A DNA stretch of 29,167 nucleotides from a virus. Every line of letters begins with the position of its first letter. Position 1 is the stretch's first letter. The position numbers and the translations under genes were made by a program. Below, one piece after another: positions 2,507 to 28,057 of the stretch. A model generated the notes under the pieces. That model was not told the origin of the DNA. It saw only the letters and a list, made by a program, of their open reading frames with translations, and did not search any database. The stretch covers positions 1-29,167 of the IMG/VR virus record IMGVR_UViG_3300005548_000484. One strand, written 5' to 3'.

Positions 2507-5500
2507 ATGGCGGCCGATGCAGTCGGCAATATCTACATCGCCCTGATGGTAGATACGGCTGGCGCTCGTAATTTCACGAGCGCCGCCTCCTCGATCGACC
2601 GCGACAGCCAGCGAATCCGGACGTCGCTCAACAACACCTCTCGTTCGGTTACGTCGCTCCAGTCGTCGATGAACCAGAACCTGCGCGTGAAGCTCTTCAG
2701 CAACATGCTGAAGGACGCTTCGACTGCGGGCAGCGAGGTCGGCAAACTGCGCGCGGCCATGCTTGGTCTCGCCGCAATCACCGGCACGTCTCTGACGTCG
2801 GCCTTTGCGGCCACCTTCCTGCTCAAGACGGCCGACGCCGCCAAGCTGATGAGCAATCAGCTCAAGACGGTGACGGACTCGAGCGAAGATCTCGCGGCGG
2901 TCCAGAAGAAGCTCTACGACGTGTCGCAGGACACGCGCTCCGGCATGGAAGCCACGGTGACCATGTATGCGCGTCTCGCGCGTGCGGCCACCAACTACGG
3001 CATGACGCAGGACCAGTTGGTCCGTGTCACCTCCACGGTGCAGAAGGCGTTCGCCATCGGCGGCGCCACGCCCGAAGAAGCCGCCGGCGCCGCGCTGCAG
3101 TTGTCGCAGGGTATCGCGTCCAACCGCTTCAGCGGTGACGAATACCGTTCCGTCGCCGAGAACGCGCCAGTGCTGCTGCAGGCCATGGCCAAGCAGCTCG
3201 GCGTCACGATCGGCCAGCTTCGCCTGATGGGCCAGGCCGGCAAGCTGACGGGCGAAGTGGTGGCCAGGGCTATCCTCGGCGCCAGCGACGAGATCGACAC
3301 CAGCTTTGCCAAGACTTCGGTCACGGTCGGGCAGGCGATGACCCGCGTCGGCAATGCCTTTCTCATGTACATCGGCGCCGGCGATAAAACGTACGGCGTA
3401 ACCGGCAAGCTGGCCGGGGCACTCTCGAGTCTCGCCGACAATTTCGACGAGATCGCGAAGTACCTCACCCTGATTGCAGGTCTTTCAGCCGCGGCGTTCG
3501 GGGGTAAGCTCCTGGGCGGCGCGACGACGAAGGCCTATTCCGCGCTCATTCCTAACAAGGCTGAGGTCAAAGCTGCGCAGGCCGAGCTTGAGGGTATTTC
3601 GAAGCAGCGTGACGCGATCGCGCAGGCCATTGCCCAGACCAACTCGAACCTGGCCACGTCGACGCCAGAGGGCGGTGTCGGCCCGGCGCTGCCCGATGCT
3701 TACACCCGCAAGGCGATTGCCGCTCAGCAGCCGGCGATTGCAAGCGCCACCAATGCGCAGGCGCGGGCGCAGGAAAAACTCAACTCTTTGGAAGTCGAGC
3801 GGCTGATCGCCGAGGAGAAGCTCGAAACCGCGCAGGCGAAGCTCATCGAGAATCTCGACAAGCAGGTAGCCAAGGCTCAGCAGCTCAACGCCGCCGATGC
3901 GGAACGCGTCGGCTTGGCCATGAAGGCCGCGGCCGCGGAAGAGGCGATGACGCACCTCAAGGTCGCGAGCAACGCCAGCGTTGGCACGCAGTCGCTCGAG
4001 CAGAGCATGGCGGCCGAAGCCGAGGCGATGTCGCGCTTCGATTCATCGCTCGGAAAGCTGCAGACCGCCCGCCAGTCATTGTCGCAGGCCGCTGCCGGCG
4101 AGTTCGACACCAAGGCGATCACGGCCGCGGCCGCTCAGGTCAATGATCTCGACCGCCAGATCACCAAGGCGCAAGCCGATGTCGCGGCAGCGGCGACGAA
4201 TGTCGACAAGGCCTACGTTACCAGCACAGAGTCTCTGAAGGCTGCCGATGCCGATCGCGCGGCCGCAATCACCAACATCTCGCAGCTTCAGGAAGCCGAT
4301 ACCGCTCTTCGCACCAAGGCGATTGCGGTTACCGATCGGCTGACGCTGTCGCAGCGCGCCCTAAGCGTTGCCCAGAAGGCCGGCGGTTCGGTGCTGGCAT
4401 TTCTCGGCGGCTGGACGGGCGTCGCCTTCATGGCGGCGATCGCCGGCATCGGGCTCTACGAGTCCAACGTCGAGGCCAGCATCCAGAAGACGGCCGACAT
4501 CCGCAAGGAGATGGAAGATCTAGGCCTGGTCAGCAAGGACACGGCTGACGCCCTCAACGGTGTCGGCAAGTCGATCGCCGATATGACGCAGGACGAGCTG
4601 CGCAGCAAGCTCCGCGAAATCAACGACGAAATCGCGAAGATGAAGAATGGGCAGAACGCGATCGACGCGGTCTTCCACTACGATCCGCAGAACCTGCAGA
4701 ACATCCTCAATGCGCTGAATGCGATCACCGCGCCGCGGATGAGTCCCAAAGGCGGCAACTACTTCGTTGCTGACCAAGCCTCGCGTGATGCCGCCGCGCA
4801 GATCGCCGACATGGTCACCCAGTTCGAGGCCGGCAAGAAAGACGCCAAGGACGTCAACGATCTGCTCGACCAGATCAGCAAGCAGAACTTGAGCGGGCCG
4901 ATGGACGATCTGATCGGCCGCCTGCGCACCGCCATCCCCCTGCTCGCCGGACTGCTCACCTATCAGCAGCACGTCGGCGCGGAAGTCAGCGGCGTCGCGA
5001 TGATCGACCAGGACACCGACAAGCGCAATGCCGTGGCTTTCAACAAGGGCCAGGACATCACCGATGCCTACACCGAGAACCTCCTCCGGCAAGCCAACGA
5101 GACGGCGCAGCAGCGCCAGATCGAAACCAAGGCAAAGTCGCTGCAGAAGTCCGTTCCGGCCGGCGGCAATCCGTTGTCCGACGCAACAGCCAAAGCCCTC
5201 GCCACAACGATTGTCCAGAAGGAAGCAGCCGAGTCCGCTGCGCTGAAGTCGGGCACCTCCGACGCGAAGAAGTTCACCGAGGGCATGGAAAAGCTCAACG
5301 ACGAGATCGCGGCGTCGCCTCTCGACGAATTCGGCCAAAAGGTTGTCGAGACCGCGCGCACTATGGGCATCGGCGAAAAGGACATCGAGGCATACGCCGC
5401 GGCCTTCGCCTCAGATGACATGACCAACGCGCCGAAGAAGCTCGTCGAAATCGCGGACGCGATGCGGAAGATCAACGCCGCGAAGATCCAGCAGAACCTG

Positions 5501-12550: not shown

Positions 12551-15255
<2,705 letters not shown>

Positions 15256-15259
<4 letters not shown>

Positions 15260-16831: not shown

Positions 16832-17983
16832 ATGCGTTTTCACGTCGTAGCGTTGCCGCATACCCAAACCACATCGGCGTTCTCGGCCTGTGCCTACACC
16901 AACAAGGTAGTCGGCTTTTGCAAGATGATGATGGCGCGCGGTCACGAGGTCTTCCTCTACGCCGGCGAGCAGAACGACGCACCCTGCACCGAACTGATCA
17001 CCTGCGTCAGCGAGACCAAGCGTGCCGAGATCGTCGGCGACAAACCCTATGTCGAGGCCAGTTTCGACTACCTGCTGCCTCATTGGCAGACGTTCAACTA
17101 CCGTGCGATCGCCGGGATCATCGAACGCCGTCAACCCCACGACTTCCTGTGCCTGATCGGCGGCCTTGCTCAAAAGCAGGTGGCGGATGCACTGCCTGGC
17201 ATGACGGCTGTCGAATGGGGCGTGGGCTACGGTGGCGTATTCGCGCCATACCGCGTTTTCGAGAGCTACGCCTGGATGCATACCCACTACGGCGCCGCCG
17301 CGAGAAGTCCGACCGACGGTGACGGCAAATGGTACGATGCCGTGATCCCGGGCTACCTCGACCCTGCCGATTTCCCATTCAAGGGTGATCAGCCGGCACA
17401 AGCCAAACCCTATTACCTTTTCATAGGGCGCCTCGTCGAGCGCAAGGGTTTCCAGATCGCGATCGATGCCTGCAACGCGTTGGGTGCCCATCTTGTGCTT
17501 GCCGGTCCAGGCGCGCCTCCGGCTGGCGCCGACTATCGGGGAGTCGTCGGGCCGGTTGAGCGAGGTCGACTGATGGCCGGCGCGACTGCAGTGTTCGTGC
17601 CCACGCGCTATATCGAGCCGTTCGGCAACGTCGCGATCGAGGCCATGGCCTGCGGCACGCCGGTCATCACCACGGACTGGGGAGCCTTTACCGAAACGGT
17701 CGTCGACGGAGTCACAGGCTTCCGGTGTCACACGCTTAGAGAGTTCGTCGACGCCGCAAAGCGCGCGCCAGAACTCGATTCTTCGGTTATCCGGAAGCAT
17801 GTCGTCGAGCGTTACTCACTTGAAGTCGTTGGCGCCAAATACGAACGCTATTTCAAAAGGCTCGATGGCCTCTGGGGCATCGGGTGGCACGACCTGTCGG
17901 GCGTCGAAGCCGAACCGGCGCACCTTGGCGCGCCGGTTAAATCGCGGCGACGGGCTAAAACTTCCAGTTCAAGCCGACCTTGA
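16832..17983 (+). CDS. glycosyltransferase, GT-B fold, GT4 family
   Basis: The 383-aa product is a retaining GT4-type sugar transferase. The C-terminal donor domain is clear: 'YYLFIGRLVERKGFQIAIDA' (residues 195-214), 'LVLAGPG', and the E-x7-E motif E262-PFGNVAI-E270, followed by 'AMACGTPVITTDWGAFTETVVDGVTGF'. The N-terminal acceptor domain has 'CAYTNKVVGFCKMMMARGHEVFLYAG'. The start has AGGA 7 bases upstream. The last ~35 residues are basic, Ser-rich and overlap the opposing barrel gene by 29 bp. A phage enzyme here could alter the host O-antigen or capsule (lysogenic conversion) or glycosylate virion proteins such as the Thr-rich collagen-like fibre; the sequence alone does not tell which. 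Confidence 0.88.
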   Translation: MRFHVVALPHTQTTSAFSACAYTNKVVGFCKMMMARGHEVFLYAGEQNDAPCTELITCVSETKRAEIVGDKPYVEASFDYLLPHWQTFNYRAIAGIIERRQPHDFLCLIGGLAQKQVADALPGMTAVEWGVGYGGVFAPYRVFESYAWMHTHYGAAARSPTDGDGKWYDAVIPGYLDPADFPFKGDQPAQAKPYYLFIGRLVERKGFQIAIDACNALGAHLVLAGPGAPPAGADYRGVVGPVERGRLMAGATAVFVPTRYIEPFGNVAIEAMACGTPVITTDWGAFTETVVDGVTGFRCHTLREFVDAAKRAPELDSSVIRKHVVERYSLEVVGAKYERYFKRLDGLWGIGWHDLSGVEAEPAHLGAPVKSRRRAKTSSSSRP

Positions 17984-18647
17984 CGGTGTCGAACCCGAGG
18001 TTCGTCCAGTTGTCGAACTTGTATCCTGCCGGCGTCGGCGGGTCGGCCGCGATTGCGGTCTGGTATCCATGCCCGGTTCCGAAGCCGTAGTGGTCGTATT
18101 CGACCTTGACGCTAACATTTTCGGTCAACGCTTGCTCGAGCCCGACTCCGGCAACCCAACCGAGGAAGCCATCGGCCGGCGTTCCGACGTAGTTGGGGTT
18201 CGTGGTCTGCTGAAGAGCGCGGCCGCCATATAAAGCTGCACCGCCCTTGGCATAGAGCAGAGTATTGCCGAAACCGACGCCGAGGCGCCCCGTGAGATCT
18301 GCATAGGCACCTCCGCTAAGCGTCAAGTCCTGATGCGACGCGGCGTGAGACGAGCCGATAACGCCGGAGCCGGAGGCCGAGGCATAGCCGACGTCAACTT
18401 CGGGGCCGAAGACGATATTGCCAGTCTGGAAGTTGTACCCGGCCTGTACGCCACCAAGGGCTCCGGCGACCGGATAGTTGAACGGGCCCGGGACGACGCC
18501 CGGCGAGGTATCGCTTACCGATGCGCTGCCCCAAGCATAGCCGCCGTGGACGCCGATATAGCCGCCCGACCAGTCGTGAACGTCACCCGCAAGGGCGGGC
18601 CCCATCATCAGGGCAAACACAGTCATCAGGATTGAAATAAACTTCAT
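17955..18647 (-). CDS. outer-membrane beta-barrel protein, Omp25/Omp31-like
   Basis: The 230-aa product has a clear signal peptide, MKFISILMTVFALMMGPALA, cut before GD. The mature part is a small barrel: 'WSGGYIGVHGGYAWGSAS', 'GALGGVQAGYNFQTGNIVFGPEVDVGYAS', 'LTGRLGVGFGNTLLYAKGGAALYGG', 'FLGWVAGVGLEQALTENVSVKVEYDHYGFG', and a final strand ending in Phe (VGLNWKF), the usual signal for outer-membrane insertion. ATG 18647 has AAGGAG 7 bases upstream; the upstream in-frame extension is discarded. It overlaps the glycosyltransferase tail to tail. Such barrels in phages are candidates for lysogenic conversion, for example receptor masking or replacement. Its leader contains a striking inverted-repeat structure. 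Confidence 0.87.
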   Translation of the reverse strand: MKFISILMTVFALMMGPALAGDVHDWSGGYIGVHGGYAWGSASVSDTSPGVVPGPFNYPVAGALGGVQAGYNFQTGNIVFGPEVDVGYASASGSGVIGSSHAASHQDLTLSGGAYADLTGRLGVGFGNTLLYAKGGAALYGGRALQQTTNPNYVGTPADGFLGWVAGVGLEQALTENVSVKVEYDHYGFGTGHGYQTAIAADPPTPAGYKFDNWTNLGFDTVKVGLNWKF

Positions 18648-18663
18648 GCGCTCTCCTTCTCGC

Positions 18664-18788
18664 TCGATCTGTCGGGGAGTTGGAAAGACCGCATCTGATG
18701 AGGTCCGCATTGACCTTGCAGAAAACGGCCGAGCACGAGGCGCGGCAGCCCTGTCAATATACGTCAATGCCTCCCCGACAGAGATCGA
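18664..18788 (-). ncRNA. candidate structured leader RNA upstream of the barrel gene
   Basis: Read on the minus strand, TCGATCTCTGTCGGGGAG (18788-18771) pairs with 18679-18664 over 16 bp with only a 2-base bulge. Directly inside, GCATTGAC (18770-18763) pairs with GTCAATGC (18714-18707). Within that loop, 18746-18728 forms a hairpin (GCCG-C-GC..GC-T-CGGC). Between the two 3' arms, 18705-18687 forms a 7-bp hairpin with one mismatch (GACC-T-CAT-CAG-ATG-C-GGTC). Together this is a closed, branched fold ending 16 bases before the barrel ATG. The arm CTCC could instead pair with the GGAG of the ribosome-binding site, so a switch is possible. Complementarity is seen; RNA function is inferred. DNA-level operators are an alternative. 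Confidence 0.45.
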
Positions 18789-18801
18789 GGAGCGCGTAGT
18801 T

Positions 18802-18882
18802 CGGTCCTATTAGACCGTCAGATGCGGGGTTTCCACGCCCCAGAGCACCTGCAGGCGCTCCAAGCCAATCCATATACGGATT
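18802..18882. promoter_or_regulatory. cluster of dyads in the divergent barrel/lysis intergenic region
   Basis: Four inverted repeats follow one another: CGGTC-6-GACCG (18802-18817), GGGG-8-CCCC (18826-18841), the near-perfect palindrome GAGCACCTGCAGGCGCTC (18843-18860, one mismatched pair) and AATCCATATACGGATT (18867-18882, one mismatched pair, TATA centre). They lie between the minus-strand barrel gene and the plus-strand lysis genes. This looks like an operator region for one or both promoters. No confident -35/-10 pair could be assigned. Confidence 0.4.
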
Positions 18883-18940
18883 AGCCCTGACGAATCAATC
18901 GGCCGACGCGACCTAAGAATACTTACACGGAGCGTCCCTC

Positions 18941-27445: not shown

Positions 27446-27727
27446 TCAGCCGTCTACCTCCTCCAGAGGTCGATCGGTCGGGGCATATCCGTCGTGAGCA
27501 ACGTCATCAATGCCGCAGTCCTCTTCAGGTTCAAGGTCGGGATCGCCGTCCATCCTGTCGAGCATTTCGATGAGGTGTTCGATTGTCGCCGAGATCGCAA
27601 TTCTAATATATGCGCTCGCACGACTAGCATCCTCTTCTAGCGTCAGTTCTTGAGTTTCGCCCGCCGTAATCAGTAAAGTTTTTACACCAACAACCGCAAC
27701 TACCACGTCATTCCCTGTTGTCGTCAT
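27446..27727 (-). CDS. small acidic Hyphomicrobiales-type protein, function unknown
   Basis: The 93-aa product starts at ATG 27727; the frame is open to 27973, but that upstream part is low-complexity and forms hairpins. The protein has a hydrophobic 'DVVVAVVGVKTLLITAGE' segment, a helix 'ASAYIRIAISATIEHLIEMLDRMDGDPDLE' and a very acidic tail. The 'DGDPDLE' sequence is frequent in short Rhizobiales proteins and marks the host group. No function is known to me. Hairpins directly upstream could cover the start codon. Confidence 0.55.
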   Translation of the reverse strand: MTTTGNDVVVAVVGVKTLLITAGETQELTLEEDASRASAYIRIAISATIEHLIEMLDRMDGDPDLEPEEDCGIDDVAHDGYAPTDRPLEEVDG

Positions 27728-28057
27728 TACCCGGCCGCTGCCGCCAGCCGGGGGGTAGTAACCTGCCAATGAGACAGGCCGGACGCTTTTAGGTTTCCCT
27801 TGGACAGCACGACCGCCCCCGGCCAAAAGGCCGAGTACGGAGCCATGCCGCCAAGCACGCCCGCTCGCATCTGCGACGCTCAGATGCGTTTTCACTGTCC
27901 GCTCAATACGCGGAATCGCTCCCGGAAATGGGGAGGCGACAGCGATATCATTGGTCCGGGTTACTACGCCCAATCACCAGCAATAGGGCATATGAGCGCA
28001 TGCTTCAAGCGAGGTAGCGCGGTCTCGAATACTGATGTCAAATTTTAAGCATCCGGC
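27728..28057. other. 330-bp region without a convincing gene; hairpins near 27730-27770
   Basis: Read on the minus strand, a nested hairpin (TTAC..CCGG-CTG-GCGG-CAG-CGG-CCGG-GTAA) ends at the ATG of the acidic protein, and a short CCTG..CAGG stem precedes it. A plus-strand frame at 27800-28048 starts with TTG and lacks a ribosome-binding site. No tRNA or clear att core is visible. This gap lies at the 3' end of the integrase gene, where attP would be expected if the window were from a free phage genome. Confidence 0.4.

Follow-up and report, generated by a model that had tools for sequence, protein, structure and literature searches.

The window analyzed here is a stretch of 29,167 nucleotides (nt) of the virus record IMGVR_UViG_3300005548_000484, in which a structured element lies on the minus strand upstream of a minus-strand gene for an outer-membrane beta-barrel protein. 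This element belongs, as a divergent member, to an RNA family that is missing from Rfam 15, and we consider it likely that the family acts in cis as the 5′ leader of alphaproteobacterial accessory genes. Covariation among its relatives shows a conserved fold of ~170 to 200 nt, comprising hairpins P_a, P_b, and a variable P_d, P_g/P_h and P_i inside a stem P_f, and a pseudoknot, P_c. A preliminary description of the window had read the 3′ part of the element as a closed three-way junction; the arms of that junction are present, but they form only the 3′ half of the larger, pseudoknotted fold. The parts are listed below with the evidence for each (sequence, minimum free energy [MFE] fold, or family comparison).

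18669 to 18863, minus strand: whole leader RNA element, divergent family member, matched by covariance model R1, which was built without the window
18871 to 18898, minus strand: probable promoter, TTGATT (18898 to 18893), 16 nt, TATATG (18876 to 18871); sequence
18843 to 18860, minus strand: P_a hairpin GAGCGCC-TGCA-GGTGCTC; sequence, family helix 1
18826 to 18841, minus strand: P_b hairpin GGGG-CGTGGAAA-CCCC, most conserved block; alignments
18818 to 18825, minus strand: 5′ strand of pseudoknot P_c, GCATCTGA; eight perfect pairs with 18698 to 18691
18691 to 18698, minus strand: 3′ strand of P_c, TCAGATGC, in the P_i loop; family self-versus-cross test
18802 to 18817, minus strand: small hairpin equivalent to P_d, CGGTC-TAATAG-GACCG; sequence; the family P_d is longer, and that of the window is unmatched by R1
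18771 to 18788, minus strand: 5′ strand of P_f, core TCGGGGAG; sequence, MFE fold, family helix
18664 to 18679, minus strand: 3′ strand of P_f, core CTCCCCGA; sequence, MFE fold, family helix
18763 to 18770, minus strand: 5′ strand of P_g, GCATTGAC, then conserved GTAT; sequence, MFE fold, family alignment
18707 to 18714, minus strand: 3′ strand of P_g, GTCAATGC; sequence, MFE fold, family alignment
18715 to 18762, minus strand: apical P_h region, holding a hairpin at 18746 to 18728; alignments
18687 to 18705, minus strand: P_i hairpin GACC...GGTC, whose loop supplies the 3′ strand of P_c; sequence, family helix 10
18653 to 18658, minus strand: Shine-Dalgarno of the barrel gene, AAGGAG; ensemble prediction, largely unpaired
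17955 to 18647, minus strand: outer-membrane beta-barrel gene, 230 amino acids, PF13505, signal peptide; the cargo of the leader

A conserved pseudoknotted fold

No direct DNA similarity to the window leader was found in phage records, and a plasmid search with it returned nine short matches only, including ones in Shinella, Sinorhizobium, Rhizobium, Sphingobium, and Streptomyces. The Sinorhizobium and Rhizobium matches (H7 and H9) fall within the coding sequence of a phenylacetate-CoA ligase-like protein and were attributed to chance, while a 35-nt match in a Shinella plasmid proved to be a true lead, as it is part of a colinear element. Used as the query, the Shinella element matched 342 plasmid records over ~165 nt, mostly from Agrobacterium, Rhizobium, Bradyrhizobium, Shinella, and Methylobacterium and at places that are largely unannotated. 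A full-length alignment of the window with 17 of these records (one labelled phage) contains four conserved blocks: the P_b hairpin GGGG-YGTGGAAA-CCCC, GACGTATGTCCA, CTAAAGG, and CGGTTTTCCAACTCCCCG. Model R1 was built from 16 sequences (15 plasmids and one phage-labelled record), with both the window and the Shinella element held out, and holds nested helices only, P_c being left out. It matched the window at 18863 to 18669 over the full length of the model (positions 1 to 178; 74.3 bits, E 2.2e-17, the E-values being rough because of a short calibration) and the Shinella element with 156 bits.

All helices and hairpins named in the preliminary description lie where it had placed them, both in the sequence and in the MFE fold. 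These are the 16-bp stem with a 2-nt bulge (TCGATC[TC]TGTCGGGGAG, 18788 to 18771, pairing with CTCCCCGACAGATCGA, 18679 to 18664), the 8-bp stem (GCATTGAC, 18770 to 18763, with GTCAATGC, 18714 to 18707), the hairpin at 18746 to 18728, and the hairpin at 18705 to 18687 (GACC/GGTC plus inner pairs, with one mismatch). The last of these, described as a 7-bp hairpin, is P_i, and its loop is engaged in the pseudoknot because the 3′ strand of P_c is 18698 to 18691. The element starts ~75 nt upstream of the region first described, near 18863, which adds two or three hairpins, and an inverted-repeat search found 18844 to 18818 to be complementary to 18698 to 18672, crossing the 16-bp main stem. At the other end, 16 nt separate 18664, the end of P_f, from the ATG at 18647, placing the element directly upstream of a gene on the same strand. 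The window copy has nevertheless diverged from its family: its P_h region differs from the family hairpin GGTGC-CTCG-GTGCT-AAAG, and the family P_d, P_h, and 3′ hairpin GCGG-GGGCGCA-CCGC are replaced or lost, the last being absent from other family members too.

The MFE fold has −72.2 kcal/mol, compared with −53.3 ± 4.1 for shuffled sequences (z −4.6), and 1 of 200 shuffles was equally good. However, when sliding scan windows on both strands were compared with correction for GC, the element stretch ranked only ~9th of 2322, and energy alone is not decisive because other stretches of this GC-rich DNA fold about as stably for their composition. What decides the reality of the structure is covariation in relatives, and the compensatory changes whose absence the preliminary description had made its main ground for refutation were found. 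In a MAFFT alignment of 16 sequences, 88.7% of cells are paired, compared with 34 to 55% when partners are slid, and 21 pairs changed on both sides. In 87 copies aligned to R1, an alignment that is fitted to the model and hence leans toward it, the values are 95.3% and 40 to 53%, with both-side changes at 42 of 43 pairs. Among these copies, helix 1 (P_a) is paired in 99.8% of cells with all six pairs covarying, P_f in 98.4%, and helix 10 (P_i) in 99.7% with all four pairs covarying. P_d carries little weight, because its first register in R1 (helix 4 of the 16-sequence test) was poor.

As the preliminary description had supposed, this is not a described Rfam family. Rfam 15 gave no matches in the window at its gathering thresholds, and a weak search of 500 nt gave chance-level matches only; nothing was matched over the element in the Shinella locus (L006) and 20 diverse loci. 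No description of the RNA family was found in the open literature, and ARAGORN reported no tRNA or tmRNA genes in the window. The family is thus probably undescribed, its kind being a structured leader RNA and its unusual part a copy-specific pseudoknot. An HDV-like (hepatitis delta virus) ribozyme, with two crossing helices and a GCUAAAGG motif, was rejected by eye owing to a long insertion between strands and no matching P4. At the Shinella element itself (L006:3160 to 3356), a subthreshold sX15 match of 31.5 bits lies on the minus strand at 3343 to 3198, and the 3′ stem is lost where sequence toward an IS110 transposase begins. An IS110 bridge RNA was rejected on account of this break on the insertion-sequence side and of the other copies, which lack IS110.

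Hypervariability of the pseudoknot

Because P_c is absent from R1, its test is independent of the model. Among 107 RNAs (89 distinct sequences), the longest helix that the P_i loop could form with the strand following P_b averaged 6.6 when both came from the same RNA and 3.1 when they came from different RNAs. A helix of at least 5 bp was present in 93% of RNAs paired with themselves versus 5.5% of mismatched combinations.

The P_c strands differ between copies far more than their surroundings do. Four dispersed paralogous units in one genome (G045; L247 to L250), each consisting of a promoter, the leader, and a gene for a small membrane protein, differ by 3.7% outside P_c; within P_c, the difference is 43%, yet complementarity is retained in every unit. 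Six copies in a second genome (G200; L236 to L241), which are dispersed units of the same makeup, differ by 11.6% outside and 28% inside. All copies carry different P_c sequences in 13 of 14 further genomes examined (two to four copies each), the exception being G391, with two identical ones. One helix diversifying fast inside near-identical paralogues is unusual and calls for explanation. Drift with rare compensatory pairs would not readily explain it, which would imply selection for difference or an exchange mechanism. It is conceivable, if rather doubtful, that P_c is a self-recognition tag, with a distinct, internally complementary barcode of 6 to 9 bp at each locus of a cell keeping folding or autoregulation locus-specific and preventing pairing in trans between copies. 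If so, the family would represent an RNA-based orthogonality or incompatibility system of mobile elements, placed before regulators (traM, DUF2285) and morons.

Distribution, cargo, and proposed role

The element was found in 60 of 397 genomes of one order, 47 of 387 of its class, and 23 of 398 sampled across the phylum, and hundreds of Rhizobiales plasmid records carry it. About one in seven to eight of the alphaproteobacterial genomes sampled thus have it before accessory genes. A TATAAT-like hexamer peaks 4 to 5 nt before the element (at least 4 of 6 matches at one offset in 30 of 83), and because this −10-like box sits so close, P_a is probably where transcription starts. In the window, where the promoter box is weak (8 of 12) and was not found by a stricter scan, the transcript would start near 18863.

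A gene on the same strand usually begins 15 to 75 nt downstream of the element. Downstream genes include traM (several plasmids), XRE regulators, DUF2285/RovC-type genes (PF10074), a chemotaxis receptor, PDDEXK-like and Mrr-like nucleases, a DNA methylase, beta-barrels, and small membrane proteins, many of these names being readings of translations rather than database matches. The chemotaxis receptor gene follows the element in a phage-labelled faecal record (L105, MT836939.1) that is probably not phage sequence. In pTiC58, a copy lies upstream of traM (NC_003065.3, 149935 to 150109, equivalent to L168:29936 to 30110; 133 bits with R1); its transcript would be expected to start near 149938. 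The TraM protein (Atu6131) is lower in an Agrobacterium hfq mutant (PMC4201532), which is compatible with RNA-level control of traM. DUF2285/RovC-type genes with the leader occur in Hyphomicrobiales (L193 to L202), in parallel to traM. PF10074/DUF2285 proteins are reported to act as activators and as antiactivators of conjugative elements (PMC10359603); the leader may therefore precede two families of conjugation antiactivators.

The contig from which the window comes (G001) is 112 kb long. The window makes up its final 29 kb and holds tail, endolysin, and integrase genes, while terminase, portal, protease, and capsid genes (names read from translations) lie in the part before it. The barrel gene and its leader lie between tail/glycosyltransferase genes and lysis genes on the strand opposite to the late genes, as a moron cassette would. 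In L167, a contig from a related phage (one of its tail proteins is 30% identical), the RNA occupies the same slot and relative strand, with a pseudoknot of its own (GCACAGAG/CTCTGTGC), before a different gene of 62 codons; therefore, the leader is kept while the cargo changes. The suggestion that the RNA controls a surface protein carried by a phage thus holds insofar as a structured leader precedes the barrel gene, but not as something specific to that protein. Run over the surroundings of 80 barrel-gene relatives on chromosomes (within 4 kb of each, 662 kb in all), R1 found nothing below E 0.1, whereas unrelated genes have copies, so R1 is specific and the barrel protein family is not what the RNA is bound up with. 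Barrel-gene homologues, whose upstream regions lack the RNA, were accordingly discarded as a source of leader homologues. Elsewhere in the window, a long tail-region open reading frame (ORF) with collagen-like GPTGATG repeats lies at 12551 to 15259 (plus strand) and a glycosyltransferase moron (PHROG 3408) at 16832 to 17983. A second copy of the RNA, which with its downstream ORF adjoins the integrase, keeps P_a, P_e, P_f, P_i, and P_h (as TGTCCAAGG-GAAA-CCTAAAA); its P_c self-pairing test was negative, with no P_c partner detected at 27889 to 27744.

27744 to 27889, minus strand: second, strongly diverged RNA copy; R1 31 bits, E 1.8e-6 (E 2e-8 unfiltered over 1.1 kb)
27446 to 27727, minus strand: ORF of 93 amino acids (MTTTGNDVVV...) immediately after the second copy; Pfam and PHROG gave no match

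We propose that transcription from the leader's own promoter would begin at P_a, that the RNA would fold during synthesis, and that expression of the downstream gene would depend on whether some ligand, protein, or RNA is bound to the pseudoknotted domain. Where only a short distance separates the element from the start codon, as in the phages, control could act on translation initiation; members in which a hairpin and T-rich run follow P_f might use transcription attenuation. The phage and several plasmid members lack such a run. The preliminary description had envisaged one form of translational control, in which CTCC in the arm would pair with GGAG of the ribosome-binding site in a mutually exclusive state. 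In the predicted ensemble of the full leader, however, five of the six Shine-Dalgarno bases are unpaired at 0.66 to 0.98, and the spacer GAGCGC alone is paired (with 18795 to 18790). This outer helix lies outside the family consensus and is not evident in L167, so that this switch is a possibility only and lacks comparative support.

Several points weigh against a cis-acting leader: (i) the downstream genes share no common pathway, and hence suggest no ligand; (ii) the expression platform differs among members; (iii) outside annotated plasmids, a simple ORF rule served to assign the downstream genes; (iv) either the main window copy, with its divergent P_d and P_h, or the second copy, which has no P_c, could be decaying; and (v) a role in trans is possible. 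The alternative that survives best, although we think it unlikely, is a gene for a trans-acting small RNA (sRNA), such as the pTi sRNA QfsR or a relative, that merely lies upstream of other genes. QfsR is reported to have trb and flagellar mRNAs as pairing partners (PMC7912708, PMC7843513), and the pTiC58 copy lies in the conjugation region; the terminator-like hairpins that some members have right after P_f would also suit an sRNA. Yet the spacing and orientation of gene and element are constant over unrelated genes, the phage and many plasmid members reach the ribosome-binding site or start codon without a terminator, and, whereas a seed would be conserved, the segment that varies most pairs within the RNA itself.

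We regard as improbable a general processive antitermination or Rho-protection leader, similar to HK022 put, that would keep transcription of foreign genes going. Such a leader would fit an element that starts at the inferred +1, resides on mobile elements, and precedes diverse genes without a common pathway, but the cargo is usually a single short gene, and the size and fold are unlike put. More improbable still is a mobile repeat resembling a miniature inverted-repeat transposable element (MITE) with a promoter, the structure being its terminal repeats. Several copies occur per genome, on plasmids, phages, and loci resembling integrative and conjugative elements (ICEs), and two genomes hold duplicates of the entire promoter-leader-gene unit. 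In those two genomes, however, the shared sequence continues into the gene, and the element ends at genes in one orientation, with copies mostly too divergent for recent transposition and with internal covariation unexpected of a MITE. A chance stable fold of GC-rich phage sequence, for which the equal stability of other stretches might speak, is refuted by the independent R1 match, covariation, the 8-bp pseudoknot, and synteny in another phage, and we give it almost no credence.

Comparison with known systems

Ti-plasmid traM is one of the best-studied conjugation switches, and the ~200-nt pseudoknotted RNA before it is missing from Rfam 15. If the element controls expression, plasmid conjugation, ICE regulation, and phage morons would have a further layer of control at the RNA level. 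Among the nearest described RNAs is QfsR, an sRNA from the Ti plasmid of Agrobacterium fabrum (Diel et al. 2019) that is linked to quorum-sensing-controlled conjugation (PMC7912708). It shares its pTi location and link to conjugation with the pTiC58 element, and the two could be the same RNA; QfsR is described as trans-acting, whereas the family element is a gene-proximal leader on many replicons. The Rhizobiales sRNA Atu_Ti1 (RF02506) likewise occurs in conjugation regions of Rhizobiales plasmids, but where it was detected (L092:2583 to 2674, minus strand) it does not overlap the family element.

Widely used riboswitches with varied cargo, such as cyclic-di-GMP-I, are also structured 5′ leaders at the transcript start, precede many unrelated genes, and use translational or terminator-like platforms. 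The family element differs from them in having no Rfam match, one helix that is hypervariable between paralogues, and no known conserved ligand pocket. HK022 put RNA and other cis-acting antitermination leaders stand at the transcript start on mobile elements, whatever the gene; compared with put, the family element is a much larger fold and contains a pseudoknot. In antisense-controlled plasmid RNAs and type III antitoxin RNAs, segments diversify between copies, each pairing with a partner of its own. For the family element, neither an antisense gene nor a toxin pairing was found, and, in contrast to those systems, both partners of P_c lie in the same RNA.
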